From Sulfuriferula multivorans (GTDB taxonomy: Bacteria; Pseudomonadota; Gammaproteobacteria; Burkholderiales; Sulfuriferulaceae), in contig NZ_BGOW01000002.1 of NCBI RefSeq assembly GCF_003851125.1, positions 124,001 through 188,000 of the forward strand: DNA of 64,000 nt. Reading direction: 5' to 3'. Below are positions 8,394 through 55,632 of this stretch, in pieces. The position numbers and the translations under genes are program-made. How positions within the stretch are numbered: position 1 is the stretch's first letter; every line of letters starts with the position of its first letter. A model generated the notes under the pieces. It made no database searches and was not told the origin of the DNA. It worked only from the letters and a program-made list of their open reading frames with translations.

Positions 8394-8524
8394 TGGACTA
8401 GCTCAGAAAGTGACCTTAGAAGTGTAGCGCAATTCGGCAACCGGGCGTATCTCGACTGGCATCACGCGCCGATTTTTCTTAGAATAGCGGTCTTCATCGA
8501 TTATTTGATTCAGAGGAACCAGGC

Positions 8525-8941: not shown

Positions 8942-8960
8942 TGCACCCCGGCTACGCCGG

Positions 8961-9596: not shown

Positions 9597-9597
9597 C

Positions 9598-11119: not shown

Positions 11120-11332
11120 AAGTCCTTTACCGACTCATTGCGAACATTCGATATTATCTACATAAATTCCATAGCCCATTCCGATTTACGGAACTGAGGA
11201 CAAAATAAGCACAAGGGTAATTTCAACTGTAAATTACGGATACCTAATTTCACTTACGATGGCCTCTGCATACGATAGACTTGCGCGGTGTCAATTCTGC
11301 ATCGAGCTTGCTCGATAGCAGATTGCCTGACC

Positions 11333-30403: not shown

Positions 30404-32137
30404 ATGCGATTAAGAAAAATTCCGCTGGTTGCCGGTTTGTTTCTGGCTTTCTCCTCAGTGACAGTGGCGCAAGCCGGAACCGGAACCGGTGAAGTGACAT
30501 TTATTCATATGGGCGACCTGCATGGTCACTTGATTCTACACCCGAATGTACGTAGCGATGGCAATGGTCAAAGTGAGGGGGGCGTGGCGCGCATTTACAC
30601 GCTGATCAAAGACATCCGCCGTGCCAAGCCCGAGCAAACCTTGCTGGTGAATACGGGCGACACATTACATGGCGGCGCTGAAGCTTTGTTCACCCAGGGC
30701 GAAGCCATGATTAAAGTTTTGAACGCCTTTCATATCGATGCGTATGCACCGGGCAATTGGGACTATGTATACGGCGCGAACAAATTCATCGACTATTTCA
30801 CCGGCCAGCAACCCAAAGCCAACTGGCACCCGATTATTTCCAACCTGTATTACGATAACTATCCCGGCGCCGAGGCACGTACCGGACAAAACGTTGCCGC
30901 ACCCTACGTCATCAAGACGATTAATGGTCTGCGCGTCGGGATCATTGGTTTTACCAGCGACCGCGGACCTCAGGCCGGCGATCCGAACATTACCAAGGGT
31001 CTGAAATTCACCAACGGCGAGGCCGAGTATCAAAAATACGCAAAACTGTTGCGGGAACAGGATGTCGATCTGGTCGTTGCCATCTCCGAGCTGGGATTGC
31101 ATGGCAACCTGACGTTGGCCAATCGGATTCCGGGTGTCGATATTATTCTGTCTTCCGACAAGCATGAAATCACGCCCAAACCTATTGTTTCCAAGCACGG
31201 CACGCTGGTGATCGAGCAAGGCATGGACGGTCAGGTGGTCGGGGAACTCAGCGTACGCGTAGTCAAGGGCAAGGTAGTCAGCAATAAATATACTTCTCAT
31301 CGCATCACCGACCGGATCAAGGAGGATCGTGGCATCGCCGCACTGGTGAAATCTGTGCGTCTACCCTATGTTGCGGGCCCAAAATTCCGGGCAGGCGAGA
31401 TTAAAAACCCCATTAGTGGCGCTCGGCTACGCTATCCTATCGACACAGTTATCGGTCAGACGGTAATCCCGTTGTACCGCAGTAATTTCAGTAATGAATC
31501 CATGCCCGGCGTCATCGAAGGCAGTTCCCACGATTTCCTTACCGACGCATTCCGCGTCATGACCGGCGCTCAATTGGGGGGGATTACCGGATTTCGTTAT
31601 GGCACCACCATAGCAAAGGGTCCGATCAAAATGGAGGATCTCTACCACTTTATGCCCATCGGCCCGCAAATCGCCAAGGGTGAATTGACCGGAGCACAAA
31701 TCAAGAAGACCCTGGAAGGCCAACCTCAAGGTGAGCAAGGACGTCCCGGGGAGTGGGTGAATGGCTGGACGGCGGGTTATAGTGGCCTGACTGCCGATTT
31801 TGATCCACGGGCGGCACAGGGAAATCGTGTCAGTAATATCCAGGTTAATGGCAAACCCCTGGATCCCAATGCCACTTACACGGTCGGCGGTTTTTATTAC
31901 GATCTGATACCCAATCTGATCAATCGTGTCCCGGCCAAAAACATTGTTGTGCTGAAGGACCAGGACGGTAGCATTCTGGATGGCACCGATGTGGTGAAAC
32001 GCTACGTGGAAACGCTACCAGCCAAAACGGTTAATCGCGAGACGTTGCAACTCGATCGTATCCGCCTCATCAATCCATTGCCCCAGGAAGAGCATGGCAT
32101 ACGAGAGATTCAACCATTGGGATCAAATCCTATGTAA
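30404..32137 (+). CDS. SoxB-like periplasmic metallophosphoesterase / 5'-nucleotidase family
   Basis: A 577-residue exported protein with signal peptide ending VTVAQA. It has the 5'-nucleotidase layout: a metallophosphoesterase domain (HMGDLHGHLI at about 35-44, VNTGDTLHGG at about 86, APGNWDYVYG at about 117) and a C-terminal nucleotidase domain (FRVMTGAQLGGITGFRYG, FMPIGPQIAKGELTG). It most resembles SoxB, the sulfate thiohydrolase of thiosulfate oxidation, but the later metal positions differ: SELG replaces SHNG and SSDKHE replaces GGHTHD. No soxAXYZCD neighbours are present. So it is a SoxB-family paralogue of unproven activity. GAAAGG precedes the ATG. Confidence 0.8.
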   Translation: MRLRKIPLVAGLFLAFSSVTVAQAGTGTGEVTFIHMGDLHGHLILHPNVRSDGNGQSEGGVARIYTLIKDIRRAKPEQTLLVNTGDTLHGGAEALFTQGEAMIKVLNAFHIDAYAPGNWDYVYGANKFIDYFTGQQPKANWHPIISNLYYDNYPGAEARTGQNVAAPYVIKTINGLRVGIIGFTSDRGPQAGDPNITKGLKFTNGEAEYQKYAKLLREQDVDLVVAISELGLHGNLTLANRIPGVDIILSSDKHEITPKPIVSKHGTLVIEQGMDGQVVGELSVRVVKGKVVSNKYTSHRITDRIKEDRGIAALVKSVRLPYVAGPKFRAGEIKNPISGARLRYPIDTVIGQTVIPLYRSNFSNESMPGVIEGSSHDFLTDAFRVMTGAQLGGITGFRYGTTIAKGPIKMEDLYHFMPIGPQIAKGELTGAQIKKTLEGQPQGEQGRPGEWVNGWTAGYSGLTADFDPRAAQGNRVSNIQVNGKPLDPNATYTVGGFYYDLIPNLINRVPAKNIVVLKDQDGSILDGTDVVKRYVETLPAKTVNRETLQLDRIRLINPLPQEEHGIREIQPLGSNPM

Positions 32138-40119: not shown

Positions 40120-40992
40120 ATGGAACGGCACATGCTCTGCTCAGGAACCCGCAGCCGGATAGCCCGTGCCACGTGCGCGGCAGTCTTTTTGATGCTCGCG
40201 GGTTCATGGTTGCCGTTTCTCCCCATTTCCCAGGCACACGCCTCCGATCTTCCTCCCTATCGCTTCGGTGTTCTGCCCCTGCAAAGCCCGAACAAGCTCG
40301 CATCCATGTTTTTGCCGCTGACCAAGGTGCTGGAAGATCGCCTGCACCGCCCGGTCCAATTTGTCACAGCGCCGAGCTTCTCGATTTTTATGCAGCGCGT
40401 CGCACAGCGGGAATACGATATCGTGTACCTCAACCCTTTGCTGTGCGCCGAGGCGCAAAAATCCGGCTATCACGTTATTGCCAAAATTGCGGGAGAACCC
40501 TTCACCGGCATCCTGGTGGTACGCCGCGACAGCAATATCACCAAACTTGCCACTCCGCTCCGACCGGGATTGCGCCTGGGTTTTCCCGACCCTGGTGCTT
40601 TCGCAGCGACCGTGATGACACGCCGCTACTTGGAAAGCCTGGGCATCCCGGTAGACAGGGATTTCGAGGTTAAATATTTCGGCTCCCAGGACTCCGTACT
40701 AATGGCCCTGTATTCCGGACTGGTGGATGTTGCCGGCACCTGGAAGCCTTCCCTGCGTTCCATGCCGAAACATATTCAGCAAGCATTGCGGATTATCGCC
40801 GAGACGCCGCCGGAACCGCAGATGCCCATCGCCGTACGCGACGACATGCCGGCTGCCGACATGAAAACGGTTGCCAAAGTCTTGGTGGATATGGGCAGCA
40901 CCAGCACCGGCCGGCAGATTCTTAATGGCATGGAACTACCCCAAGGCTTCGTGCTCACGGACGATAGCGAGTATGTCAAGGTGGGTAAATGA
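40120..40992 (+). CDS. PhnD-like periplasmic substrate-binding protein (sensor partner)
   Basis: A 290-residue exported protein with a signal peptide ending QAHAS, and the PhnD/PF12974 fold: YRFGVLPLQSPNKLASMFLPL, then AQREYDIVYLNPLLCAEAQ, GILVVRRDSNI, GFPDPGAFAATV, and FGSQDSVLMALYSGLVDVAG. In phosphonate transport PhnD feeds an ABC permease, but no permease is here. Instead the stop overlaps (ATGA) a histidine kinase. The sensor domain of TtrS, the tetrathionate kinase, is of this fold, so this protein likely reports a periplasmic sulfur oxyanion or similar anion to the kinase. That role is inferred. Confidence 0.82.
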   Translation: MERHMLCSGTRSRIARATCAAVFLMLAGSWLPFLPISQAHASDLPPYRFGVLPLQSPNKLASMFLPLTKVLEDRLHRPVQFVTAPSFSIFMQRVAQREYDIVYLNPLLCAEAQKSGYHVIAKIAGEPFTGILVVRRDSNITKLATPLRPGLRLGFPDPGAFAATVMTRRYLESLGIPVDRDFEVKYFGSQDSVLMALYSGLVDVAGTWKPSLRSMPKHIQQALRIIAETPPEPQMPIAVRDDMPAADMKTVAKVLVDMGSTSTGRQILNGMELPQGFVLTDDSEYVKVGK

Positions 40993-42449
40993 GCCAGTCC
41001 GAGTCCGGCAACCTGGCCATCTTGTTACCAAAAACCGCTAACAAAAGTTCTGGATTCACCCATACATTGCGTTTTCGCCTGATGCTGTCCGTGGCACTGG
41101 TGCATGTGGTGCTAATGGGCATATTCGTTGCGGTCGCGGTACGGGAACAGTCGGATAAAATCCAGGCCGAGTTATACAGCCGTGGCCGTTCGCTGGTTGC
41201 CCTGACCGCTGTGGCTTCAACCAATGCCCTGCTTACAGAGGATCTGGGTGCGCTTGCGGAAATCATTCACCGGGTCAAGAGCCAGCCCGAAGTGGTGTAT
41301 TGTGAAATTATTGACTCGCGCGGACGCGTGCTGGGGACGACCTATCCGGAACGCCTGGGCAAAGTCTTGCCATTGCTGGCCGCCCAGTCTGAACATTTCC
41401 CGCTGCCTCCGGGCGATCACGTACTTGATCTGCAAGAGCGGATTCGCATAGCCGATCAGACTATCGGAATCGTGACGATTGGATTGTCCACTGTTCGTAT
41501 GGATTCCGCCTTAGCCAAGACCTGGCGCGATGGATTGTTTTTTATCCTCACTGCCTTGATTGTGGGCAGCGGTGCTGCATGGGTTCTTTCTCTGGTCACT
41601 ACGCGCGGATTGCGCAACATGATGGAGGCTGCGAGCAAAATCAGCCAGGGCAACCTTGACGTAAGGGTTCCTGCAAACTCGCAAGATGAGGTGGGCATGC
41701 TGGCTACGGCCTTTAATCACATGGTGGCTTCGCTCAAACAGGCCTCGGAAGACGCCGCACAGGAACACGAACGGCGTAACCAGGCAGAACGGCTCGCTTG
41801 CGTGGGTGAAATGTCGGCGATGATTGCCCACGAAATACGCAATCCGCTATCCGCCATCATTAATTCAGTTAATTTGCTAGGCGGAGACACCCTGAACCAG
41901 GAAGATCGTAGCCAGGTGATCTCCATCCTGAACAATGAATCCGGGCGTCTGAGTCGTATCCTCGGCGATTTCCTGGAGTTTGCCAAAATGCGCGAGTCAC
42001 AATTGACCCGCGCCAACCTGAAAGTGCTCATCGAAGAAATCGCCAACATGTTGTACCAGGATCATCAGGCAGGTAAACGTCTTCGCCTTGCCATTCATTG
42101 CGCACCGGATGCCCAAATGGCCGTTTTCGATCACGACCAGATGCGCCAGGTATTATGGAATCTCATGCTTAACGCACTGCAATCCATGCCTGAAGGTGGC
42201 GAGCTGTCAGTCATGACGCGACGTGCAGGAGAAAAAATAATGGTGCATATTGCGGATACCGGCTGCGGTATCGCACCGGATTTCCAGAAAGAAATCATCA
42301 AGCCCTTCGTCTCCAGCCGCAAGGGTGGTACCGGCCTGGGGCTCGCTATCGTGCAACGCATCCTGGTGCAGCACGGCACCCAGTTGAGCATCAAAAGCAC
42401 ACAGCATGTTGGAACAGAAGTCAGTTTTCAATTAAACGGTATTCACTAG
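40989..42449 (+). CDS. Membrane sensor histidine kinase
   Basis: A 486-residue kinase with TM1 at about 31-51, a periplasmic loop of about 130 residues, TM2 at about 182-203, a HAMP segment (MMEAASKISQGNLDVRVP, then EVGMLATAFNHMV), a HisKA box EMSAMIAHEIRNPLSAIINS with phospho-His281, and a HATPase with N box NLMLNALQSMPEGGE, VHIADTGCGIAP and GTGLGLAIVQRI. The architecture is that of AtoS/ZraS kinases of sigma-54 regulators. It is coupled to a PhnD-like protein upstream and followed two bases later by the regulator gene. Confidence 0.93.
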   Translation: MSQSESGNLAILLPKTANKSSGFTHTLRFRLMLSVALVHVVLMGIFVAVAVREQSDKIQAELYSRGRSLVALTAVASTNALLTEDLGALAEIIHRVKSQPEVVYCEIIDSRGRVLGTTYPERLGKVLPLLAAQSEHFPLPPGDHVLDLQERIRIADQTIGIVTIGLSTVRMDSALAKTWRDGLFFILTALIVGSGAAWVLSLVTTRGLRNMMEAASKISQGNLDVRVPANSQDEVGMLATAFNHMVASLKQASEDAAQEHERRNQAERLACVGEMSAMIAHEIRNPLSAIINSVNLLGGDTLNQEDRSQVISILNNESGRLSRILGDFLEFAKMRESQLTRANLKVLIEEIANMLYQDHQAGKRLRLAIHCAPDAQMAVFDHDQMRQVLWNLMLNALQSMPEGGELSVMTRRAGEKIMVHIADTGCGIAPDFQKEIIKPFVSSRKGGTGLGLAIVQRILVQHGTQLSIKSTQHVGTEVSFQLNGIH

Positions 42450-42451
42450 TC

Positions 42452-43822
42452 ATGGCTACTATCCTGATCGTGGACGATGAGTTTTCCATCCGAAAAACAC
42501 TCGGCCTGCTGTTGAAGACGGACCAGCATCAGGCGCTGGAGGCAAGCAATCTGGCAGCGGCTAAAGCCTGCCTGGACAAGCATATCGTGGATCTGGTGAT
42601 CACCGACCTGCGCATTGGCGAGGAAAGCGGTCTGGAGCTATTGACCTACCTGAAGGACACCGGTTACGCCGCGGAAAGCATCATGATGACCGCCTATGCT
42701 TCCATCGAAACCGCGGTGGAAGCCATGCGTCTGGGCGCTTACGATTACCTCACCAAACCCATTAACCCGGACGAGCTGTTATTGCGGGTACACAAAGTAC
42801 TGGAAAAAAAATCTCTGTACGAGGAAGTCACCCGTTTGCGCGGCGAATTGTCCAGACGCGACAAACTCGGCCACATCACTGCACGCAGTCCACGCATGGC
42901 GGAGATTCGGAAAATTGTCGAACGTATCCGGGATCGCGACCTGCCGGTGTTGATCACCGGGGAAACAGGTACCGGCAAGGAAGTTCTGGCAAACGTCATC
43001 CATAGCGTGAGCGCCCGCAGTCACGGCCATTTTGTCGCGATCAATTGCTGCACGCTGCCTGAAGAATTGCTGGATTCCGAACTGTTCGGCCACATTAAGG
43101 GTTCGTTTACCAGCGCCACTTCGAACCGCAAAGGGCTGTTCCAGCAAGCGCATGGCGGCACGCTTTTTCTGGATGAAATCGGCGACGTCAGCCCGCGTCT
43201 GCAGGCCAAGCTGCTACGCGCCCTGCAGGAAGGAGAGGTGCGCCCGGTCGGCAGCGAAACCTCCGTCAAGGTAGACGTGCGCATCATCGCGGCCACCAAC
43301 TGCGATCTGGAGGAAATGGCGAACCAGGGAAGTTTCCGTCGCGACTTGCTGTTTCGTCTGAACGTGCTTCCCATCCATATCCCGCCGCTACGGGAAAGAC
43401 GCGAAGACATTCTGCCGCTGATTGATTATTTCCTGGAGATGGAACGTAAACAACTCGGGCGTCACGATCTCAACCTGAGCCCCACGGCCCGACAAAAACT
43501 GATCGAGTACGATTGGCCGGGTAATATTCGGGAATTAAAAAATGTTGTAGAGCGCAGTTTCGCTCTCTACGGTGGGCCGGTTCTTGATGCGCACGAAATC
43601 GCATTGTCGATGAAGCAAAATACATCGGGGACTCTGGATAAAAATAAAACCCTGGCGGAGGCGGAGGCCGAACACATCCGGCACGTATTGGTCGAAAATC
43701 ACGGCAACCAAGTGGCCGCTGCGCGTGTTTTGGGCATAAGTCGCTCTACCTTGCGCAGGAAACTGGACGAGATGAGTCACTCATCCCTGTCTCATTCTGA
43801 CTCACCCCCTGTCGCATTTTAA
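42452..43822 (+). CDS. Sigma-54-dependent response regulator
   Basis: A 456-residue NtrC-family activator: receiver (VDDEFSIRKTL, phospho-Asp52 in VITDLRIGEE, Lys in YDYLTKPIN), AAA+ domain with Walker A TGETGTGKEVLA (about 168-178), Walker B GTLFLDEIGDVSP, and VEVRIIAATN-like VDVRIIAATNCDLEEM, and a C-terminal Fis helix-turn-helix GNQVAAARVLGISRSTLRRKL. The sigma-54 contact loop, normally GAFTGA, reads GSFTSA (217-222), an unusual form that keeps Phe and Thr. The 3' end carries candidate activator-binding repeats (43771-43813). It lies just before a sigma-54 promoter. Confidence 0.94.
   Translation: MATILIVDDEFSIRKTLGLLLKTDQHQALEASNLAAAKACLDKHIVDLVITDLRIGEESGLELLTYLKDTGYAAESIMMTAYASIETAVEAMRLGAYDYLTKPINPDELLLRVHKVLEKKSLYEEVTRLRGELSRRDKLGHITARSPRMAEIRKIVERIRDRDLPVLITGETGTGKEVLANVIHSVSARSHGHFVAINCCTLPEELLDSELFGHIKGSFTSATSNRKGLFQQAHGGTLFLDEIGDVSPRLQAKLLRALQEGEVRPVGSETSVKVDVRIIAATNCDLEEMANQGSFRRDLLFRLNVLPIHIPPLRERREDILPLIDYFLEMERKQLGRHDLNLSPTARQKLIEYDWPGNIRELKNVVERSFALYGGPVLDAHEIALSMKQNTSGTLDKNKTLAEAEAEHIRHVLVENHGNQVAAARVLGISRSTLRRKLDEMSHSSLSHSDSPPVAF
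43771..43813. promoter_or_regulatory. Candidate upstream activator sites within the regulator gene end
   Basis: GATGAGTCACTCATC (43771-43785) is a perfect odd-centred palindrome. The overlapping direct repeats ACTCATCCCTGTC (43779-43791) and ACTCACCCCCTGTC (43800-43813) start 21 bases apart, about two helical turns. They lie about 80 to 120 bases before the sigma-54 promoter, the normal position for NtrC-type sites. They are also coding, so codon constraint could partly explain them. Confidence 0.45.
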
Positions 43823-43891: not shown

Positions 43892-43907
43892 TGGCATAAC
43901 CATTGCT
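43892..43907 (+). promoter_or_regulatory. Sigma-54 promoter of the sulfur gene cluster
   Basis: TGGCATAACCATTGCT matches the consensus TGGCACG-N4-TTGCW with exact GG (-24) and GC (-12) at the correct spacing; only the CG after TGGCA differs. Start of transcription would be near 43918, about 46 bases before the first ATG. An inverted repeat CATATTG-N11-CAATATG (43863-43887) lies immediately upstream. Confidence 0.78.
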
Positions 43908-43963: not shown

Positions 43964-44455
43964 ATGGATCTGTTCAAAAAAACCCTTAATCCCGTCGCGG
44001 CACTGGCGATCATCGCAGTGCTCGACATCTTTCTATTTCTGGTTGTCGGTGCGTGGACAGTCGGCGGCGGCGAAACCATGATGACCGGGCTCATCGCCAA
44101 ATTCTTCATGGGCAGCGCCATTGATCGCATTCCGTTCTGGAGTGTCGCGTTCCCGCCCGACCCTTACTACTGGAAAATTTACATCAGCCTGGGAATGGTG
44201 TTCGGCGCCTTTGTGGGTGCCGTGTTCAGCAAGGAGTTCTGCTGGCGTATGCCGCATCGCCTGACCGAATGGGTGATGATCACCATCGGCGGCTTGCTTA
44301 TGGGTATCGGCATCCGACTTGCCTTTGTGTGCAATGTGAGCACTTTTTTCGGACTGACGCCGGAAATGAACCTGGGCGGCTACCTTGCGGTGAGCGGCAT
44401 TCTGGCAGGCACCTGGGTCGGTACCTTGATTTACAAAAAGAATCTGGAGGGATGA
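43964..44455 (+). CDS. YeeE/YedE-family permease, N-terminal half protein
   Basis: A 163-residue membrane protein with about four helices (residues about 8-28, 70-90, 105-125, 136-156). The family motif is in GIRLAFVCNVSTFFG, where the Cys corresponds to the relay cysteines of TsuA/YeeE, a thiosulfate importer. Here the usual single permease is split into two genes, as in PmpA/PmpB. ATG 43964 is chosen because TGGAGA lies 6 bases upstream; ATG 43952 is in frame. It opens the cluster just downstream of the sigma-54 promoter. Confidence 0.87.
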   Translation: MDLFKKTLNPVAALAIIAVLDIFLFLVVGAWTVGGGETMMTGLIAKFFMGSAIDRIPFWSVAFPPDPYYWKIYISLGMVFGAFVGAVFSKEFCWRMPHRLTEWVMITIGGLLMGIGIRLAFVCNVSTFFGLTPEMNLGGYLAVSGILAGTWVGTLIYKKNLEG

Positions 44456-44456
44456 C

Positions 44457-45158
44457 ATGACACCTGTGGCGGAATGCCTGTCGGCATTTATTTTTGGCAC
44501 CACCGTGGGGCTGCTGGTACAACGCTCGCGTTATTGCAATGTAGCAGCCCTGCGCGACGCCATGCTGTTCAAAACCTATCGCAATACCAAAGCCATGCTG
44601 GTGGCGATGATGATCATGACGCTGGGGTTTACCGCGTTCATCACCATCGGGGCGGGTAAACCCATGCAATTCGACGTGGGGTTGAACACCTTTATTGGAT
44701 TGTTTCTATTCGGCCTTGGCATGGTGCTGGCCGGTGCCTGTACGGTGTCCACCTGGGTCAAGGCCGGTGAAGGCAATATCGGCGCGATCTGGGCGCTGTT
44801 GTTCACCTTTATCGGCATGTTCCTGTTTTCACTGGTGTGGTCCTTCGATTTCTGGCCGCCTGCGCCGCAGACCATGACCGGCACACCCAACCTGGCAGGG
44901 CTGCAGTTCGGGTTCGCCAATGCGGCAACGCTGCAAAGCAGTACCGGTATTCCAGCCATCGTATTCGGCGCGTTGCAGACACTGGTCCTGTTCGGCATCT
45001 ATCGTGCGATTTTGAAGCGGGAACGTGCGGAGGCTCCGGTACCTGAGCCCCAGGCCGCGTCCATAGAAGCGTCAGCATGCGATGCCTGGGCTGATTCTCC
45101 CGCTGAACCTGCCGTGCAAGGCGCCTTGGCAAGAGCCGAGGCAAGCCAGCCGGCATAA
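44457..45158 (+). CDS. YeeE/YedE-family permease, C-terminal half protein
   Basis: A 233-residue membrane protein with about five helices. Conserved Cys residues occur in QRSRYCNVAALRDAM and VLAGACTVSTWVKAGEGN, matching the relay cysteines of thiosulfate permeases. A hydrophilic tail of about 40 residues rich in Ala, Glu and Pro follows the last helix. It starts one base after the stop of its partner half. Together with TusA it should form a YeeE-YeeD type thiosulfate uptake pair. Confidence 0.87.
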   Translation: MTPVAECLSAFIFGTTVGLLVQRSRYCNVAALRDAMLFKTYRNTKAMLVAMMIMTLGFTAFITIGAGKPMQFDVGLNTFIGLFLFGLGMVLAGACTVSTWVKAGEGNIGAIWALLFTFIGMFLFSLVWSFDFWPPAPQTMTGTPNLAGLQFGFANAATLQSSTGIPAIVFGALQTLVLFGIYRAILKRERAEAPVPEPQAASIEASACDAWADSPAEPAVQGALARAEASQPA

Positions 45159-45187
45159 CCCAATCACCAAGCATAAAGGAGCGAATA

Positions 45188-45496
45188 ATGGGATTTTTCA
45201 GCAAGAAAACCGAGGCAGTGCCCGATGCTGGCCAAATGACGCAGGCGGTATTGCCGGACGGTACCCAGCATCTTATCAAGCAGCAAATCAACTGCCTGGG
45301 TGACTCCTGCCCGCGCCCCCAGCTGATGACAAAAAAGGCGCTCTCCACGGCGATGCCAGGCGATGTCATCGAAGTCCTGATTGACAACGCCACCTCCATG
45401 GAGGCCATTCCTCCCATGATGAAAGATCTGCGTAGCTCGCACCTTGCGACCGTGAGAGCGGACAGGTGCTGGCATGTCTATGTGCGTAAAGATTGA
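45188..45496 (+). CDS. TusA-family sulfur carrier protein
   Basis: A 102-residue protein with an N-terminal extension of about 25 residues and a TusA/SirA core: INCLGDSCPRPQLMTKKAL, where the Cys before Pro (CPRP) is the sulfur-carrying residue, then GDVIEVLIDNATSMEAIPP. TusA proteins carry persulfide sulfur in the cytoplasm, and the YeeD-type partners accept sulfur from YeeE permeases. A strong AAGGAG ribosome site precedes the ATG. A second Cys precedes it (NCLG). Confidence 0.9.
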   Translation: MGFFSKKTEAVPDAGQMTQAVLPDGTQHLIKQQINCLGDSCPRPQLMTKKALSTAMPGDVIEVLIDNATSMEAIPPMMKDLRSSHLATVRADRCWHVYVRKD

Positions 45497-45506
45497 GGAG
45501 ACGACA

Positions 45507-45725
45507 ATGCGTTTCGCAAAATTACAAATGGTCGTGTTCTCGACATTATCGGCGGCAATCAGCATCGGTGGCCTGGCATATATCTTCATGGATCCACCCG
45601 CTTATCTTCATGCTACCCGGCAAGGTGTGCCCTATTTCACCCCACAAGTCATCAACCCCGCCGACGGCAAAGCGCTGGATTTGAATATGCTGGTCAGGCA
45701 TTACCAGGGAAAGGACAAATCATGA
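45507..45725 (+). CDS. Small membrane-anchored protein of the sulfur cluster
   Basis: A 72-residue protein, MRFAKLQMVVFSTLS at the start, with one helix (residues about 7-28) and a periplasmic or cytoplasmic tail with PPAYLHATRQGVPYFTPQVI. No cysteine and no known family. GAGGAG precedes the ATG at 45507. Its stop overlaps the start of the next tiny gene (ATGA), arguing that both are translated together. Confidence 0.7.
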   Translation: MRFAKLQMVVFSTLSAAISIGGLAYIFMDPPAYLHATRQGVPYFTPQVINPADGKALDLNMLVRHYQGKDKS

Positions 45726-45814
45726 CTCTGGATTTTGCAACCATTCTGCAAATCATCATGTTCGTGGTGGCTTTCTATATCACCTATGTCTGCCTTACCA
45801 AGGATATTTTCTGA
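45722..45814 (+). CDS. 30-residue single-helix micro-protein
   Basis: A reading of 30 residues, MTLDFATILQIIMFVVAFYI and then TYVCLTKDIF, starting at ATG 45722 inside the stop of the preceding gene. Almost all of it is one transmembrane helix with a single Cys near the end. Too short for usual gene calling. It is in the gap between two conserved small membrane genes and its coupling by ATGA supports translation. Resembles the very small subunits that stabilise oxidases or permeases, but the role is unknown. Confidence 0.6.
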   Translation: MTLDFATILQIIMFVVAFYITYVCLTKDIF

Positions 45815-45824
45815 GAGGCTCGCG

Positions 45825-46097
45825 ATGAAGAAAGAAATCCTGATTTTCTGGCTGGTGGCTCTGGCTCTCGCCTTCGGTCTGTCGGCATTGCTGTTCCACT
45901 ACGCCGCACTGGCGCCTGGCGCGCTTGCCAAAGCGCGTACGCCGCAGCCGATGGAAAGCATGCCGGACGTCAATTTGGGCAATGCCTATGGCACGGTATC
46001 GGTTACCGATCTGGTCGGCTACTACATCGAACATCCGCCCGCGCCGAAAGGCACCACTGCCGCAGACGACGGCGAGCACCGGTTTGGCGGTTGCTGA
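45825..46097 (+). CDS. Small membrane protein with Cys tail
   Basis: A 90-residue protein starting MKKEILIFWLVALALAFG, with one helix at about residues 5-27, a hydrophilic domain, and the C-terminal sequence EHRFGGC, whose terminal Cys could take part in sulfur transfer. Contains LVGYYIEHPPAPKG. No family recognised. GAGAGGCTCGCG lies before the start. It precedes the tandem rhodanese by ten bases. Confidence 0.7.
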   Translation: MKKEILIFWLVALALAFGLSALLFHYAALAPGALAKARTPQPMESMPDVNLGNAYGTVSVTDLVGYYIEHPPAPKGTTAADDGEHRFGGC

Positions 46098-46107
46098 CTA
46101 GCCGGCC

Positions 46108-47082
46108 ATGCGCGGATTTTTCCCGATCCTTTTCACCATGCTGTGGATGGTGCTGGCCGGGAATAGCCAGGCGTCGGAGGTTGCCTTCGGCTATACCGAT
46201 CATGCCTCGAATCTGATCGGCAGCGTGACGGTCGTGGATGCGCGCGCCGAGGATGCCTGCCTGCATTACACCGTGCGCGGCGCCCACTGCCTTCCCGCTG
46301 CCGATTTTCTTGGCCCGCACGGCCGCCTCGCGAGCTTTCGCGAAATCTATTGGCTTTTGGGAACCGCCGGGCTGTCGGAGCAAGCCCATGTATTGGTCGT
46401 GGGCGATGACCCAACTGAACGTGATTTCGTGGCCGGCATGCTGTATCTGTGTGGGCAAAGAAAAGTATCCATTCTGACTATCCCCATCGCGCGCGGCGCT
46501 GGCCTGGAACAGACTCAAATGGGACAGGGCACAGGCCGCGGAATGACGCGCAATCCGATTTATCTAGGCGTCGTACGCGAAGGCCGGATCGTGTTGCGCG
46601 ACGAACTTGCGCAAGCATTAACCACAAATCATCCACCGCTTTTACTGGACGGGCGCAGCGATGACGAATACTGGGGAGCGCGTATCAGGGCCATGCGCGG
46701 CGGACATCTACCGGGGGCTCAATCCTTGCCGATGTTCAAAGCACGACAGCAAATAGCCAAAAATACTTTGCAGCTACCGCTGCGAGACGGATTGGTCGTA
46801 TATGCCAACGACCCATTTGAATCAGTTGCGTACTTTACCTTGCTGCGCGCAGGCGCGGGCGCGGAAGTGCGGGTGTTTCAGGATGGCTGGGTGGATTGGG
46901 CGAACCATCCCGCATTGCCGATGGACTCTGTCACCTATCCAAACGCTTTACTGAGTGTCGCCCCTGCCAGGCAGCCGGAAAAGCAAACGAATCCCGGTCA
47001 AATTGCGCTGATATTGGGAGGAATTTCCATGTTAACCGCATTTTCAGCAGGATTTTTTTACCTTGGAAAAAGGAGAAGCTAG
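46108..47082 (+). CDS. Membrane-anchored tandem rhodanese lacking catalytic Cys
   Basis: A 324-residue protein with a signal sequence (ending GNSQAS), two rhodanese domains (about 23-130 and 150-270) and a C-terminal helix ILGGISMLTAFSAGFFYLG with basic end KKRRS-like KRRS. The domain folds are seen in VTVVDARAEDACLHYTVRGAHCLP and LLLDGRSDDEYWGARIRAMRGGHLPGA. However, the sites where the active Cys should be read VVGDDPTERD and VYANDPFESV, so neither has a catalytic Cys. It may bind sulfur compounds or act as a scaffold in the periplasm. Spacing to the next gene is zero. Confidence 0.78.
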   Translation: MRGFFPILFTMLWMVLAGNSQASEVAFGYTDHASNLIGSVTVVDARAEDACLHYTVRGAHCLPAADFLGPHGRLASFREIYWLLGTAGLSEQAHVLVVGDDPTERDFVAGMLYLCGQRKVSILTIPIARGAGLEQTQMGQGTGRGMTRNPIYLGVVREGRIVLRDELAQALTTNHPPLLLDGRSDDEYWGARIRAMRGGHLPGAQSLPMFKARQQIAKNTLQLPLRDGLVVYANDPFESVAYFTLLRAGAGAEVRVFQDGWVDWANHPALPMDSVTYPNALLSVAPARQPEKQTNPGQIALILGGISMLTAFSAGFFYLGKRRS

Positions 47083-47373
47083 TTGGAAATGCTGTTTGTC
47101 ATATCAACCGACCGGGGTGGCCGGATTCTGGCGCCGCTCGCTCATGCCTGCATCAGAAAAGGCATCGCATGGGGCTGCTTTTTTACCAATGACGGCGTTC
47201 GCCTGCTTGCCGACAGCGGCATTAAAAACCTGATGGACATGGCGAATCAGGCAATCGCCTGCGAGCACTCCTGGCAACGCTTCATGGCTGAGAAACACTG
47301 CCCTGTGGAACTCGGCAGCCAAACCAACCATAGCGCCATGCTCGCCAGGACAGCCCGAGTCATTACCATCTAA
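47083..47373 (+). CDS. DsrE-like small protein
   Basis: A 96-residue protein with the Rossmann-like DsrE pattern: MLFVISTDRGGRILAPLAHACIRKG-type first strand and helix (shown by LFVISTDRGG), then FFTNDGVRLLAD and the Cys sites AIACEHSW and EKHCPVELGSQ. DsrE carries sulfur on a Cys in sulfur oxidation. Start TTG 47083 is supported by AAAGGAGAAG; ATG 47089 is possible. First of three small proteins resembling a DsrEFH or TusBCD set. Confidence 0.75.
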   Translation: MEMLFVISTDRGGRILAPLAHACIRKGIAWGCFFTNDGVRLLADSGIKNLMDMANQAIACEHSWQRFMAEKHCPVELGSQTNHSAMLARTARVITI

Positions 47374-47384
47374 GGCAAAAAAAA

Positions 47385-47663
47385 ATGACCAATTCCATCA
47401 AGACTATCCTGCTCCTCGGGCGGCGTGATCACGCTGAAGCAATGCGCGTAGCCGCGGGCCTGACGATTTTTGGGCACCAGGTGCGTTTAGTGTTTATGCA
47501 CACGCCAGTCGCCGACACTCCCGAAAATGCAGAGCAGTTCGACCTGCTGGATTTGGCCGACATTGCTCCGGAAACCACCGTGCCGGAAGAGCAATTGCCA
47601 TTTCTTGACAAGGCGGCTCTGGCCGAGGCGATGCTCGAAGCCGATTTCATCATGAGCGTTTAG
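47385..47663 (+). CDS. DsrE/DsrF-like small protein without cysteines
   Basis: A 92-residue protein with a first strand KTILLLGRRD followed by AMRVAAGLTIFGHQVRLVFMH, typical of the DsrE/DsrF superfamily helix-strand pattern. No Cys is present, so it cannot carry sulfur itself and may be a structural subunit, as DsrF-type chains are in the DsrEFH hexamer. It starts 12 bases after the DsrE-like gene. Confidence 0.65.
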   Translation: MTNSIKTILLLGRRDHAEAMRVAAGLTIFGHQVRLVFMHTPVADTPENAEQFDLLDLADIAPETTVPEEQLPFLDKAALAEAMLEADFIMSV

Positions 47664-47664
47664 G

Positions 47665-47871
47665 ATGGAACAGAAAATGGATGAAATCAATGTAGTCGTA
47701 CTGCAAACGGACATTTTTCCAGATCAGGAAACGCTGGCTGAAGCAATCGAGCAACTTCAAAAGACCCATCGCGTGTGGCATTTCGACGCCACACAAACGG
47801 GCAATGCCGAGCGGGATTGGGATCAGGCGCTACTGCGCCTGCTTGATGCCGATCGGATCATCGTTGTTTAA
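47665..47871 (+). CDS. Small protein, possible DsrH/TusB-like subunit
   Basis: A 68-residue acidic protein: NVVVLQTDIFPDQETLAEAIEQL, then HRVWHFDATQTG and LLRLLDADRIIVV. Strand-helix-strand order and position third after two DsrE-type genes suggest a DsrH/TusB-like place, but it is shorter than those and lacks Cys; I cannot assign it by sequence. Starts at ATG 47665, one base past the previous stop; ATG 47677 has better spacing to the GGATGGA. Confidence 0.55.
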   Translation: MEQKMDEINVVVLQTDIFPDQETLAEAIEQLQKTHRVWHFDATQTGNAERDWDQALLRLLDADRIIVV

Positions 47872-47887
47872 CGAAGGAGGAGAAATC

Positions 47888-48820
47888 ATGAAACGGATAT
47901 TGTTTTTAACTGTAGTCTGGCTGGCGACTGCAAGCGCAACCGCATTCGCCGTAGCCGATAGCCCGCTTGTAGACACCAACTGGATTAAACAGAATTCCTG
48001 CAAGCCTGGCATCGTGGTATTGGATATTCGCAACCAGCTCGACGGTCACTCCAAAATAGATTATCTGCGCGGCCATATTCCGTGCGCCATATATAGCGAT
48101 TATATGAAGGATGGCTGGCGCGCCAAGGTGAACAACATACCCGGCATGCTGCCGCCGATTCCGCAGATCGAGAAACTGATCGGCAGCCTCGGCATCGACG
48201 ATAATTCCCACGTGGTGATCTATTCGGCGGGTAGCAACGCCCTGGACATGGGCAGTGCCACGCGCGTTTATTGGACGTTCAAAGTGCTGGGGCACGACGA
48301 CGTTTCCATTCTGAATGGCGGATATGCCGCTTATGAGGCGGACAAGGCCAACAAGATCGAAACCGGCATGAATCAGCCCAAACCGAAAGCCTTTGTAGCG
48401 AAATTCCGCAAGGACATGTATCCCACGGAAGCCGACGTGGAAAAAGCCAGGAAATCCGGCGTTCTGCTGGTCGACAATCGCCCCAACGACCAGTATCTGG
48501 GGGTCAACCGGACGCCCGCTGCGGTCAAACGCAACGGCACTATTCCTGGGGCGAAGAATCTCCCGGAGAGCTGGCTCACCGACAATAACGGCGGCAAATT
48601 CCGCAGCGCGGCCGAACTGGAAAAACTCTATAAAGATGCAGGCGTCCCCCTCAAAGGAGAAGAGATCAACTTCTGCAATACCGGCCACTGGGCGTCGCTG
48701 GGCTGGTTCGTTTCCAGTGAAGTGCTTGGCAACAAACTGGCCAAGGTTTACGATGGTTCGATGGCCGAGTGGAGCGCCGATCCGAAGGCGCCTATAGAGC
48801 AGAAAATCAAGGTGGAATAA
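47888..48820 (+). CDS. Periplasmic sulfurtransferase (tandem rhodanese, active type)
   Basis: A 310-residue exported protein with signal peptide ending ATAFA, and two rhodanese domains. The second has the active site loop NFCNTGHWASLGWFV, in which the Cys (about residue 260) is in the P-loop position. The first has VVIYSAGSNALDMGSATRVYWTF, with no Cys. Known enzymes move sulfane sulfur from thiosulfate to cyanide or thiols. An AAGGAGGAG ribosome site suggests high expression. In the cluster it is the likely periplasmic catalyst. Confidence 0.87.
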   Translation: MKRILFLTVVWLATASATAFAVADSPLVDTNWIKQNSCKPGIVVLDIRNQLDGHSKIDYLRGHIPCAIYSDYMKDGWRAKVNNIPGMLPPIPQIEKLIGSLGIDDNSHVVIYSAGSNALDMGSATRVYWTFKVLGHDDVSILNGGYAAYEADKANKIETGMNQPKPKAFVAKFRKDMYPTEADVEKARKSGVLLVDNRPNDQYLGVNRTPAAVKRNGTIPGAKNLPESWLTDNNGGKFRSAAELEKLYKDAGVPLKGEEINFCNTGHWASLGWFVSSEVLGNKLAKVYDGSMAEWSADPKAPIEQKIKVE

Positions 48821-48826
48821 CGGCCT

Positions 48827-49465
48827 GTGTACTTGGGCCGAGTTCTGGTCGTCCTGGTATTGTTCGCTGCCGCCTTGCCTGCATGGGCGAGCGGCGAACA
48901 TGAGCGCCGTCTGCAGGTGGAGATCGCCGTCTTGTATGGCGACGCTCAACTGCTGCTTAATCCGGCAACGCCTCCATTGCGACGCGAGGGTTTGCGCCTG
49001 CGCATCCGCAGCAGTCTTGGAACTCTGGGAATGCTGGCACGTTATGCCGCTCAGGAAGACCCGGCTTTGCAATCCGTTACTGGCAAGAAAATCGCCAATT
49101 TGCGCACCCAGTTTGCCCACAACAATATCCAGACATTCGCCAGGCAACTGAAGCTGCTTGAATCGAGACAGCCTTTAGACATGTCTGATTTTTTGCCCCT
49201 CACGGCAACGCCTTTGCGTTTGCATACCGGACAGGAAATTTATCAAAACCTGTGTATCGGCTGCCATCTGAACCCCGTCCTGACTCAACCCAATCCGGCA
49301 CCCAATCTTTTCTCAATGGCCGCGACCGTTCCGCGGAATGAATTCATCGCTCGTATGCTGAGCGGCATCCATGGCGTGCATCTGACGACGCTGCAAAATC
49401 CGTTTACCGACGAAGAAATTGCGAGCATGACAGCATTCTTCGAGCAGGCGCAAACCGGCAGATAG
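48827..49465 (+). CDS. Exported protein with C-terminal cytochrome c domain
   Basis: A 212-residue protein with signal peptide ending LPAWA, an N-terminal alpha-helical region of about 110 residues without recognised family (RRLQVEIAVLYGDAQLLLN), then a cytochrome c domain with heme site CIGCH at about 144 and C-terminal Met candidate in IASMTAF. Start GTG 48827 lies 6 bases after the rhodanese stop. It could take electrons from periplasmic sulfur chemistry. It is the last gene of the cluster. Confidence 0.82.
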   Translation: MYLGRVLVVLVLFAAALPAWASGEHERRLQVEIAVLYGDAQLLLNPATPPLRREGLRLRIRSSLGTLGMLARYAAQEDPALQSVTGKKIANLRTQFAHNNIQTFARQLKLLESRQPLDMSDFLPLTATPLRLHTGQEIYQNLCIGCHLNPVLTQPNPAPNLFSMAATVPRNEFIARMLSGIHGVHLTTLQNPFTDEEIASMTAFFEQAQTGR

Positions 49466-49566: not shown

Positions 49567-49693
49567 TCCACGAAAGACACGAAAGGCACGAAATAAATCA
49601 ATAGCTTGTTATCTCATTGAATATTTTGCGAGCTTTCGTCTTACAGCGAAATGCCTACTTACCCCATTTCGTGCCTTTCGTGTCTTTCGTGGA
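49567..49693. repeat. Perfect 28-base inverted repeat with CACGAAAG units
   Basis: TCCACGAAAGACACGAAAGG continuing to base 49594 is matched exactly on the other strand at 49666-49693, with 71 bases between. Each arm contains three CACGAAA units spaced 9 to 10 bases apart. Similar CACGAAAGACACGAAAGG repeats are known as dispersed intergenic elements in proteobacteria. Lies between the converging ends of the cytochrome and reductase genes. Confidence 0.8.
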
Positions 49694-53531: not shown

Positions 53532-54008
53532 CTAAATCTCCCAGCGCTCGGGATGCGCCCAGTATTTGCTGTTGAGCCAGTCCGGTACCTGTTTGTAATC
53601 ATGAAGGTTGTAACAACACAGTATCATCGTGGCCGCAGCGCAGTCCAGGCGCTGGTAAACCTGCATGCCCAGCGCCAGAAAATCCTGCTCTGTCCAAAGG
53701 CTGCGCTGCCCGGTCAAACCGGAGCCTAGCGGAGCGCCTACCAGCAAATTTTTCGCCTGCGCATCGCGCAAGCGGGCGATCAATGCCAGCGCAGCCTTTT
53801 TATCCATTTGTTCAATGCAGCCTATCAGAATAGCTGCATCATAGCGCGCGTCAGTTTGCACCGTTGATGCAACACTCATCCCTGTCATGTTGTTTGCATC
53901 GGCGGCTCGATAGGCGCTGACGCAAGCTGCCGCATCAGCCCCCAGCGCAAGCAGGGACTGTGGATGACAACCCTCCAGATAACGAGGCTGTAGAAAAAGT
54001 ATCTTCAT
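53532..54008 (-). CDS. Hypothetical protein whose start lies in an IS end
   Basis: A 158-residue protein starting MKILFLQPRYLEGCHPQSL, with YDAAILIGCIEQMDKKAAL and TEQDFLALGMQVYQRL. It looks like a DUF6231-type cytoplasmic protein, but I am not sure. The first eight codons (54008-53987) belong to the inverted end of the neighbouring IS1182 element, so the native 5' end was replaced by the IS end, which supplies ATG and the in-frame join. GGGGG abuts the ATG. It may be weakly expressed. Confidence 0.6.
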   Translation of the reverse strand: MKILFLQPRYLEGCHPQSLLALGADAAACVSAYRAADANNMTGMSVASTVQTDARYDAAILIGCIEQMDKKAALALIARLRDAQAKNLLVGAPLGSGLTGQRSLWTEQDFLALGMQVYQRLDCAAATMILCCYNLHDYKQVPDWLNSKYWAHPERWEI

Positions 54009-54078
54009 GCCCCCAATCGTGCCGGGAACCAAAATAAAGATCAAGGTCGAATTGGAGGACGATATTTTGGAGATGCGC

Positions 54079-55632
54079 ATGGCACGCTACAAACCCATCG
54101 ACACCAGCCCCCGATTTCTTGCCGTTGACCTGCAACGGCAACTACTGCCCGGCAGCTTCGAGCACGCCCTCAACCACCTCATCGACTTTGAGCTGGATCT
54201 ATCCAGCTTCGATGCCCGGTTCAACAACGACGAAACCGGCGCGGCCGCCTACCCGCCTGCCATGCTCCTGAAAGTCGTACTGTTTGCCTACAGCCAGGGC
54301 ATCGTATCCAGTCGTGGCATCGAGCGCGCCTGCCGAGACCATGTGACTTTCATCGCCCTGTCCGGCGACACCCAACCGCACTTCACCACGATTGCCGGAT
54401 TTGTCTCGAACCTTGCCGATGAAATCGCCCGCGTCTTCACCCAGATCCTCTACCTGTGCGACCGCCAGGGCTTGATTGGACGCGAGATGTTCGCCATCGA
54501 CGGCGTCAAACTGCCGAGCAACGCCAGCAAGCAAAAGAGCGGCACCCGCGCCGACTTCGAACACCAGGCCGCCAAGCTCGAAGCCGCTGCCCGCGTCATG
54601 CTCGAACGCCATCGCGAAGCAGACCAGCGTGCCATTGAAACCGACCTCAAAGCGAAAGAGAACCAGCGCATCACCCGCCTGCAAACCGACGCTGCGCGAC
54701 TCCGTCAGTGGCTGACTGCCCACCCCGAAGACCGCAAGGGCAGCCAAGGCACGATCAGGAAGAGCAACCGCACCGACAACGAGTCCGCCAAGATGGCGAC
54801 CAGCAAAGGCGTCATCCAGGGCTACACCGGCGTGGCAGCAGTCGACGCCAAACACCAGATCATCGTCGATGCCCAGGCGCATGGCACCGGCAGCGAACAG
54901 GAACTGCTGGTGCCCGTGATCAAGGCAATCCAGAACGCACTGGCCGATGAACAGGCGCTTATCACCCCGACTAGCCTCATCACCGCAGACGCCGGTTACC
55001 ACTCTGAGGCCAACCTCAAGCAACTCGCCCAACTCGATGTCGACGCCCTCATTGCCGACAATGGCATGCGGCAACGCGATCCGCGTTTCAAGGATCAGGA
55101 CAAGCACAAGCAGGCTCCCGACCCCCTGCACGACAAATCAGGCAACCAGAAAGCAAAGATACAGGCCGCCGTCTATCGCCCCGAAGACTTTGACTACGAC
55201 CCGGAAACCCGGACCTGCGTCTGCCCGGCGGGCAAGACGCTTTACGGCAACGGCAGCCACTGCATCATCAATGGATTCGCAGCCGTCAAGTTTCAGGGCG
55301 CGCAACAGGACTGCGTGCCGTGCAAACAACGAGACAAATGTCTGCGCACCCCGGAAAAGACCAAGACCCGGCAGGTGGCGTTCTTCCATGGCAAGGCCGA
55401 CGGCGAGCCAAGCTTCACCAACAAGATGCAGGCCCGCATCGACAGCCCCGAAGGGCAAGCGAAATACGGCCGACGCTTTGCCACGGTGGAACCGGTGTTC
55501 GGCAACATCCGCCACAACAAGCAGCTCAACCGCTTCACTCTCAGAGGGCAGAAGAAAGTGGATGCGCAGTGGAAGCTCTACTGTCTGGTGCACAATATTG
55601 AGAAGCTGGCACATCATGGGTATGCGCAGTAG
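54079..55632 (+). CDS. IS1182-family transposase
   Basis: A 517-residue DDE transposase. It begins MARYKPIDTSPRFLAVDLQR in the family form, then YPPAMLLKVVLFAYSQGIVSSR, IGREMFAIDGVKLPSNASK (first Asp), SLITADAGYHSEANLK (second Asp), a Zn-like region CVCPAGKTLY with CKQRDKCL, and VEPVFGNIRHNKQLNRF (Glu). ATG 54079 was chosen because TTGGAG lies 6 bases upstream; ATG 54073 and 54007 are in frame. The gene looks intact and probably active. Confidence 0.93.
   Translation: MARYKPIDTSPRFLAVDLQRQLLPGSFEHALNHLIDFELDLSSFDARFNNDETGAAAYPPAMLLKVVLFAYSQGIVSSRGIERACRDHVTFIALSGDTQPHFTTIAGFVSNLADEIARVFTQILYLCDRQGLIGREMFAIDGVKLPSNASKQKSGTRADFEHQAAKLEAAARVMLERHREADQRAIETDLKAKENQRITRLQTDAARLRQWLTAHPEDRKGSQGTIRKSNRTDNESAKMATSKGVIQGYTGVAAVDAKHQIIVDAQAHGTGSEQELLVPVIKAIQNALADEQALITPTSLITADAGYHSEANLKQLAQLDVDALIADNGMRQRDPRFKDQDKHKQAPDPLHDKSGNQKAKIQAAVYRPEDFDYDPETRTCVCPAGKTLYGNGSHCIINGFAAVKFQGAQQDCVPCKQRDKCLRTPEKTKTRQVAFFHGKADGEPSFTNKMQARIDSPEGQAKYGRRFATVEPVFGNIRHNKQLNRFTLRGQKKVDAQWKLYCLVHNIEKLAHHGYAQ

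Follow-up and report, generated by a model that had tools for sequence, protein, structure and literature searches.

How does sulfur held on a periplasmic carrier reach an oxidation pathway in the cytoplasm? For a thiosulfate oxidizer with a truncated Sox system, the sulfane sulfur of SoxYZ has been described as reaching the cytoplasm "by unknown means," and SoxT1A has been offered for the sHdr route (PMC11582611). The question returns with a 64,000-nucleotide stretch of the Sulfuriferula multivorans genome (contig NZ_BGOW01000002.1, positions 124,001 to 188,000), hereafter called the window, in which twelve genes at positions 43964 to 49465 combine a split YeeE transporter and a TusA-like sulfur carrier with small membrane proteins, rhodaneses, DsrE-like proteins, and a cytochrome c. 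We propose that this operon probably imports sulfur and supplies it to the reverse-Dsr pathway.

A conserved twelve-gene operon

The genes follow one another on the plus strand in the order YeeEa, YeeEb, TusA, TM1, TM2, TM3, rhdM, DsrL1, DsrL2, DsrL3, rhdP, and cytochrome c, where TM1 to TM3, rhdM, rhdP, and DsrL1 to DsrL3 are short labels coined in this analysis. The original prediction of a compact, one-direction cluster with these parts agrees with what we find, since every part is present and closely spaced; it made no mention of the regulatory genes upstream (40120 to 43822), the terminal GGC of TM3, or an invariant cysteine pair in rhdM. Membrane segments and signal peptides were called by eye.

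Searching 250 genomes of the order with the rhdM protein returned matches in nine, that of S. multivorans included. Gene order is unchanged in the other eight, and outside the nearest relative many of the proteins show just 35 to 60% identity. Six of these eight had the cytochrome or one or two small genes below the threshold, and one stretch (L014) ends soon after rhdP. A DsrL2 profile run over the same 250 genomes found 11, comprising these nine, G167 (which holds a plain cluster), and G092. Six other genomes drawn from the genus gave no match to either the rhdM protein or the DsrL2 profile.

A DsrL2-profile search of genome contigs yielded 109 relatives, of which the best 80 (L019 to L098) were used. 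By record title they belong to the Alpha-, Beta-, and Gammaproteobacteria, many being labeled only "Proteobacteria," and operon-bearing records include Thiorhodococcus mannitoliphagus, Sedimenticola selenatireducens, Magnetovibrio blakemorei, Rhodobium orientis, and Maritimibacter. All twelve genes lie on one strand in 48 of the 80 loci (in strict order in 45 of those 48), and the genes present are colinear in 73. The other 32 loci, sorted into classes by hand, include 12 located where a stretch ends (among them two that also lack rhdP between the trio of DsrL genes and the cytochrome), 10 without rhdP in its place, 5 lacking only a recognized TM2, and 1 without rhdM and the cytochrome. The rest (L077, L094, L098, and L096, the last cut off by its contig) hold a cluster of another kind, with the trio but with no TM1 to TM3, rhdM, or cytochrome. 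The original prediction had staked its case on a gene order conserved outside this genome, and it survives that check because the order is kept far outside it, both in other genomes of the order and across the 80 proteobacterial loci.

Median gaps between neighboring operon genes in related loci range from -1 to 47 bases, an operon-like spacing. Genes around the operon were called with a crude codon-usage gene picker rather than a tested gene caller. Nothing above the Pfam cut-off was found for the window copies of TM1 to TM3 and DsrL1 to DsrL3. Because they come back in the same arrangement elsewhere in the order and in most of the 80 loci, the three small membrane reading frames and the three DsrE-like ones are nevertheless judged to be real genes, and the three tiny membrane proteins foreseen in the window are accordingly retained. 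Substitutions in TM1 and TM3 pile up at third codon positions (TM2, at 30 codons, is too short for the test). Distances between operon proteins correlate (r of 0.46 to 0.82 over 37 shared loci), an uncontrolled figure to which we attach no weight. Viral contigs gave 42 pattern matches, none of them confirmed, and plasmids gave no match to DsrL2.

The split transporter and TusA carry invariant cysteines

YeeEa (43964 to 44455) matches positions 171 to 310 of PF04143 and YeeEb (44457 to 45158) positions 1 to 181, so the two chains correspond to the C- and N-terminal halves of a YeeE/TsuA-type transporter. The YeeEa start at 43964 suits its relatives, mostly of 163 to 165 amino acids, better than does the longer open reading frame (ORF) from 43952. 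TusA (45188 to 45496) matches PF01206 with 56.1 bits and has a CPRP motif with Cys41. The predicted pairing of a split YeeE/YedE permease with TusA is thereby upheld.

Four cysteines of these proteins are invariant: Cys27 and Cys95 of YeeEb (65 of 65 each), Cys127 of YeeEa (64 of 64; numbered from 43952), and Cys41 of TusA (67 of 67). Such counts, here and below, omit members of atypical length or low score and have an n of 55 to 81 by gene, window included. When aligned with 6leo, YeeEa Cys127 falls on TsuA Cys293, and YeeEb Cys27 and Cys95 on the first two conserved TsuA cysteines. The three conserved TsuA-type cysteines of PF04143 (22, 91, and 293; the last two numbered as cited in PMC11582611, the first read from the alignment) are therefore all present, spread over two chains.

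With all three TsuA cysteines in place and TusA adjoining YeeE as TsuB does, the split YeeE might take in whole thiosulfate, like Escherichia coli TsuA/TsuB, with TusA cleaving it, the DsrL proteins passing the sulfur on, and the periplasmic proteins delivering or shielding the substrate. NCBIfam TsuA models do match both YeeE halves, but far below cut-off (56.3 and 59.2 bits against 400 for the single-chain model NF052577), and TusA matches the TsuB/YeeD model only at an E value of 0.1. Import of whole thiosulfate also leaves two rhodaneses, a membrane anchor with a terminal cysteine, and a cytochrome unexplained. Thiosulfate was moreover excluded as the substrate of SoxT1A in Hyphomicrobium (PMC11582611), and it did not persulfidate the TusA, DsrEFH II, or DsrC of cable bacteria (PMC13293266). 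We consider such a thiosulfate importer unlikely.

Membrane and periplasmic components

Three small genes follow TusA. TM1 (45507 to 45725; recovered in 68 of the 80 loci) encodes 72 amino acids with one hydrophobic segment, and TM2 (45722 to 45814; 64 of 80) encodes a 30-residue hydrophobic peptide. TM1 has no Pfam match and is weakly similar to TM3 (hhalign probability 60%).

TM3 (45825 to 46097) is a membrane-anchored protein of about 90 residues, which we propose to be a swinging-arm sulfur carrier. Its residues 2 to 6 hold 70 lysines and arginines versus 33 aspartates and glutamates over 71 members, and this short N terminus leads into a hydrophobic segment; a conserved motif, Y..NPP or Y..HPP, comes next, then a linker (proline- and alanine-rich in the window copy) and a terminal cysteine. 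The linker, counted from PP to the end, is 15 to 20 residues long in 69 of 71 members. In every one of the 71, the last two residues are GC, in 62 the last three are GGC, and the final residue, Cys90, is invariant among the 70 members aligned. The stop codon varies (TGA in 57, TAG in 11, and TAA in 3 of 71), showing that the GGC is the true end of the protein; selenocysteine at a UGA following GGC was rejected on the same counts. By the positive-inside rule, this end should face the periplasm.

SoxY carries sulfur on the cysteine of a glycine-rich C-terminal GGCGG arm. In its proposed role, TM3 would share with SoxY a cysteine on a glycine-rich, sulfur-carrying C-terminal arm; unlike SoxY, it ends in GGC with no residue after the cysteine, is anchored in the membrane, and has no Pfam match (none at E ≤ 0.01 in the 32 members scanned). 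As a carrier, it would widen the set of sulfur carriers that use a cysteine-bearing arm.

Both rhodanese-like proteins appear to be exported. rhdM (46108 to 47082; PF00581, 40.7 bits) has two domains and a C-terminal hydrophobic anchor, and the active loop of its C-terminal domain lacks cysteine, in keeping with the membrane-anchored rhodanese without a catalytic cysteine described from the window. Its N-terminal domain does contain two invariant cysteines, Cys51 and Cys61 (55 of 55). rhdP (47888 to 48820; PF00581, 77.4 bits) was described as an active-type periplasmic rhodanese, and its Cys263, within FCNTGHWAS, does occupy the catalytic position: it is invariant (69 of 69) and aligns beside a cysteine of rhodanese 1rhd that we take to be the catalytic one.

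The last gene (48827 to 49465) encodes an exported monoheme cytochrome c with a CIGCH motif and an N-terminal region of about 100 residues. The CxxCH motif is present in 72 of 73 members. Identification of the cytochrome holds, although the window copy matches PF13442 weakly (24.4 bits, cut-off 27), since 27 of 31 relatives scanned match the family at E ≤ 0.01. In L028 (Thiorhodococcus), genes resembling those of flavocytochrome c sulfide dehydrogenase, together with one for a multiheme cytochrome/b561 protein, come after the operon on the opposite strand (8174 to 12111).

Because most of the new parts look periplasmic or membrane bound, the line might instead run outward or end in the periplasm, with the cytochrome oxidizing sulfide onto the carrier arm for storage, and the sulfide dehydrogenase-like genes of L028 would suit such a role. 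The characterized YeeE-family proteins considered here import (PMC11582611), however, and the cytoplasmic end of the line, TusA and the DsrE-like trio, resembles an acceptor line. The latter objection is tempered by the ability of cable-bacterial TusA and DsrEFH II to swap sulfur in both directions in vitro (PMC13293266). On balance, export or periplasmic loading seems very improbable.

A DsrE-like trio related to DsrEFH type II

The trio consists of DsrL1 (47083 to 47373), DsrL2 (47385 to 47663), and DsrL3 (47665 to 47871), the last lying in the DsrH position, being recovered in 79 of 80 loci, and having relatives that suggest a start at 47677. Cys60 of DsrL1 is invariant (80 of 80) and Cys73 is present in 75 of 80; DsrL2, DsrL3, and TM1 are free of cysteine in the window.

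Sequence comparison gives few matches to the DsrE family. The Pfam DsrE model (PF02635) matches 3 of 33 DsrL1 members (best E value, 0.00087) and none of 33 DsrL2 members, and profiles of the three proteins found no DsrE-family match among PDB sequences. The best PDB match of DsrL3, a leucine-rich repeat chain (E = 3.2e-5, with no passing stretch), was taken as chance. AlphaFold models made with family alignments have mean confidence (pLDDT, predicted local distance difference test) values of 97.7 for DsrL1 and 94.8 for DsrL2. In VIA-align comparisons, the DsrL1 model resembles YchN (1jx7_A; Z = 12.6, 2.0 Å over 96 residues), a TusBCD chain (2d1p_A; Z = 12.5, 1.9 Å over 96 residues), and a DsrEFH chain (2hy5_C; Z = 12.4, 1.8 Å over 88 residues), whereas no clearly unrelated chain scores above Z = 6.7. 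The eight top rows for DsrL2 (Z of 8.3 to 11.1) are the same DsrE-like chains, including 3mc3 (Z = 11.1) and 2hy5_A (Z = 9.2), with a thinner margin because the next, unrelated row stands at 7.9. Foldseek alone linked DsrL1 with DsrE-family entries (E of 2e-3 to 9e-3) and left DsrL2 unplaced. The models support a DsrE-like fold for both DsrL1 and DsrL2, and for these two the suggestion of DsrE-superfamily proteins is borne out.

The trio is not the canonical (type I) DsrEFH, for which the sole match in the S. multivorans genome (TIGR03012 at E ≤ 1e-6) lies in the dsr cluster on contig C15, with none in the operon. The plain cluster of G167 (L111), which serves here as a proxy for YTD clusters, encodes a TusA-like protein, a full-length YeeE, TusA, and DsrE-like and DsrF-like proteins, after which come a short ORF and one resembling rhodanese. 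Its DsrE-like protein is matched by the DsrL1 profile and its DsrF-like protein by that of DsrL2 (hhalign probabilities of 96.1% and 95.7%), and DsrL1 Cys60 aligns with the cysteine of a CEHS motif in the DsrE-like one, linking the operon to YTD/DsrEFH type II. The match of DsrL3 to the DsrH candidate of L111 reaches only 12.8%. The ORF after the L111 cluster (9712 to 11628) resembles rhodaneses weakly, scoring 31.6 bits against the profile of rhdP.

Association with Dsr and Sox

DsrA, DsrE, SoxB, and SoxC were counted in the S. multivorans genome and in the genomes of 49 of the 80 loci, hand-picked for spread and including the plain YTD-like L077 and L094. DsrA was found in 48 of these 50 genomes (44 over cut-off), canonical DsrE was over cut-off in 46, SoxB in 45, and SoxC in 7. 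In the control set of 250 genomes from the order, DsrA occurs in 51 (49 over cut-off), and all nine operon genomes are among the 51, one of them (G161) with a partial match below cut-off. In the dsr cluster of S. multivorans, dsrA, B, E, F, H, C, and K all exceed their cut-offs; the cluster also has a protein that we named DsrL-like and matches to J and P below cut-off.

Both SoxB genes of this genome that exceed the cut-off are on other contigs (C10 and C36). Within the window, about 12 kb before the operon, a 577-residue protein (30404 to 32137) scores 180.5 bits against the SoxB model, for which the cut-off is 550; judged by this score, it is a SoxB relative and not SoxB itself. No sox or hdr gene was seen among the adjacent genes scanned, and no Hdr-type domain among the Pfam matches of those genes and the operon. 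The original view of the cluster as distinct from Sox and Hdr systems thus stands for the genes themselves but not for their setting: most genomes that carry the operon also have SoxB and the Dsr pathway, which suggests a role accessory to those systems.

Two alternative candidate regulators

Three genes upstream of the operon, also on the plus strand, encode a PhnD-like periplasmic binding protein that is a candidate ligand sensor (40120 to 40992; PF12974, 172.8 bits), a sensor histidine kinase with sCache, HAMP, HisKA, and HATPase domains (40989 to 42449), and an NtrC-type sigma-54-dependent response regulator (42452 to 43822; PF00158, 227.7 bits, with PF00072 and PF02954). The kinase is kept beside the operon in L011 to L013, and the binding protein accompanies it in these and other loci. 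Between the regulator and YeeEa, a sigma-54 (-24/-12) promoter box, TGGCATAACCATTGCT, occupies 43892 to 43907 of the plus strand with full score.

Promoter boxes were scored in the 64 of 81 loci (window included) with a YeeEa start preceded by 120 bases or more, against 200 single-base shuffles each. The box precedes YeeEa in 18 of the 19 loci whose stretch contains an NtrC-type regulator of this family, including the window; in a few of the 19, the regulator follows the operon. Another 24 loci encode instead an RHH_4-family protein, and of these 2 have the box at P ≤ 0.01 against shuffles (3 by score alone), a difference by regulator type that is significant without correction for relatedness (Fisher exact test, P = 5e-9). 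The box is also found in 12 of 21 loci with neither regulator. From sequence, then, a -24/-12 box and an NtrC-type activator occur together, making the predicted sigma-54 control plausible.

At the threshold used, the two regulator types never occur together in these loci. The RHH_4-family gene lies upstream of the operon in L035 (6566 to 6871) and 23 other loci, all without the two-component system, and is divergent in the few loci inspected. Two of the 24 proteins were checked, and both match PF13467. Three cysteines are invariant in all 24, suggesting that the protein is a candidate sulfur sensor. The alternative regulators, a sigma-54 two-component system and a cysteine-bearing RHH_4 protein, would supply two candidate sensors.

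Ties to dedicated regulators are also what would be expected if the operon let in a little sulfur to inform them, as proposed for SoxT1B, a putative signaling YeeE of Hyphomicrobium (PMC11582611), or drained excess sulfane sulfur, with no part in bulk flux. Most DsrA-bearing genomes of the order do without the operon, which would also suit such a module. A signal would hardly call for twelve genes with their own DsrE-like trio and a cytochrome, however, and DsrA in 48 of 50 genomes points to oxidation. A signaling or homeostatic function is, in our judgment, quite unlikely.

Two features of the window lie beyond the operon. Directly after the cytochrome gene is a perfect 28-base inverted repeat with arms 71 bases apart (49567 to 49693). 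With both arms included, its arm pattern has 20 matches in the genome at three or fewer mismatches, several as facing pairs, identifying it as a dispersed palindromic repeat. Farther on, an intact 541-residue ORF (54007 to 55632) is transposase-like by eye.

Discussion

The operon is associated with DsrA, canonical DsrE accompanies it, and its cysteines lie on either side of the membrane, all of which fits an import line leading to reverse Dsr. In the periplasm, rhdP would take up sulfane sulfur, whose source could be thiosulfate, polysulfide, or the SoxYZ that stays charged where a Sox system has no SoxCD. TM3 would receive this sulfur from rhdP on its C-terminal GGC arm, anchored next to the split YeeE channel along with TM1, TM2, and rhdM, perhaps as a complex. 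Sulfur would then move over the three TsuA-type cysteines of YeeEa and YeeEb to Cys41 of TusA, from there to Cys60 in the DsrL1-L2-L3 trio, and on to canonical DsrEFH and DsrC for oxidation by DsrAB, while the cytochrome, originally suggested as an electron outlet, would accept electrons when persulfide forms in the periplasm. Transcription would be turned on through sigma-54 by the upstream sensor pair and, in other lineages, be controlled by the cysteine-bearing RHH_4 protein. The original prediction had likewise seen a sulfur relay spanning the membrane, and our analysis supports one, with inward flow as the presumed direction.

The donor is most simply SoxYZ-bound sulfur, sulfide- or thiosulfate-derived sulfane sulfur being possible. 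A bolder version, in which truncated Sox and reverse Dsr are connected across the membrane by the operon as the missing step, TM3 represents a new class of carrier whose terminal Gly-Gly-Cys hands persulfide sulfur to the split YeeE cysteines, and the cytochrome draws off the electrons, is put forward only tentatively, and we lean somewhat against it.

Several observations weigh against an import line of this kind. Neither rhodanese is indispensable in full form: rhdP was not found in its place in 10 loci with an otherwise complete set (one of them titled Acidiferrobacter), and some relatives, such as L015 to L018, encode an rhdM from which both the C-terminal domain and the anchor are missing. 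In 61 of 71 TM3 relatives there is a further cysteine besides the last one, absent from the window copy. The S. multivorans genome encodes one further full-length YeeE elsewhere. The association of operon and DsrA in the order (Fisher exact test, P = 3.3e-7) ignores relatedness, the nine operon genomes falling in six families, and 42 of the 51 DsrA-bearing genomes lack the operon, which is therefore not needed for reverse Dsr. Among those 51, SoxB occurs in 46 and SoxC in 1 (with G092 removed). A Sox system without SoxCD is thus the rule for DsrA-bearing genomes of the order and does not single out the operon; SoxC depletion was dropped as a mark of it. SoxB is not over cut-off in 5 of the 50 genomes, so the donor need not be Sox. 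Finally, G092 (L110) has an operon region and SoxC with no DsrA match, and its frames are broken in TusA, TM1, TM3, rhdM, and DsrL2, which could reflect decay after the loss of Dsr or an assembly error.

The question of how SoxYZ sulfur enters the cytoplasm gains named, testable genes from a conserved operon whose products seem to act on either face of the membrane and whose hosts have Dsr and, for the most part, Sox.

Comparison with known systems

With the thiosulfate uptake system TsuA/TsuB (YeeE/YeeD), the operon shares the PF04143 family, the three conserved cysteines, and a TusA-like partner; it differs in having two chains instead of one, a partner that is not TsuB-like, and many extra parts. 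PmpA/PmpB likewise divide a YeeE-family protein into chains matching its C- and N-terminal halves, but those chains have about 130 residues and one conserved cysteine each (PMC11582611), whereas YeeEa and YeeEb have about 163 and 233 residues with one and two TsuA-type cysteines. SoxT1A and SoxT1B of Hyphomicrobium denitrificans resemble the operon in tying YeeE-family sulfur import to Sox without SoxCD and in having a small membrane protein nearby; SoxT, however, is a single chain encoded in sox/shdr clusters and feeding sHdr-LbpA (PMC11582611), while the operon has two chains and its context is Dsr.

The nearest relative is the YTD/DsrEFH type II cluster, under which name a YeeE-TusA-DsrE core has already been described (PMC13293266, PMC13047784). 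In both, a YeeE-family transporter, TusA, and a trio of DsrE-like, DsrF-like, and, here putatively, DsrH-like proteins share one cluster, the DsrE-like subunit has a conserved cysteine (Cys67 is the active one in cable bacteria, where this DsrE takes sulfur from TusA in vitro [PMC13293266]), and a clear sequence-level match to canonical DsrEFH is lacking. Plainer relatives are seen in L077, L094, L098, the cut-off L096, and L111. The trio lies about 4 kb from full-length YeeE and TusA in L077, L094, and L098, with radical SAM-like and oxidoreductase-like genes (named by reading the sequence) between.

The original claim that no described system has the full set therefore needs dividing. Its core, YeeE with TusA and the DsrE-like trio, is a known kind of cluster; for the split transporter with a four-gene insertion, rhdP, the cytochrome, and the GGC protein, we found no description in the open-access literature (most subscription journals lie outside it), and the word "rhodanese" does not occur in the main text of PMC13293266. 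The operon keeps yeeE and tusA syntenic with the trio, as in YTD, but YeeE is split, TM1, TM2, TM3, and rhdM are inserted between tusA and the trio, and rhdP and the cytochrome c follow it. The hosts differ as well: type II clusters occur mostly with reductive DsrAB (73.9%, against 4.7% with the oxidative type [PMC13293266]), whereas 46 of the 50 genomes counted here also hold canonical DsrE.

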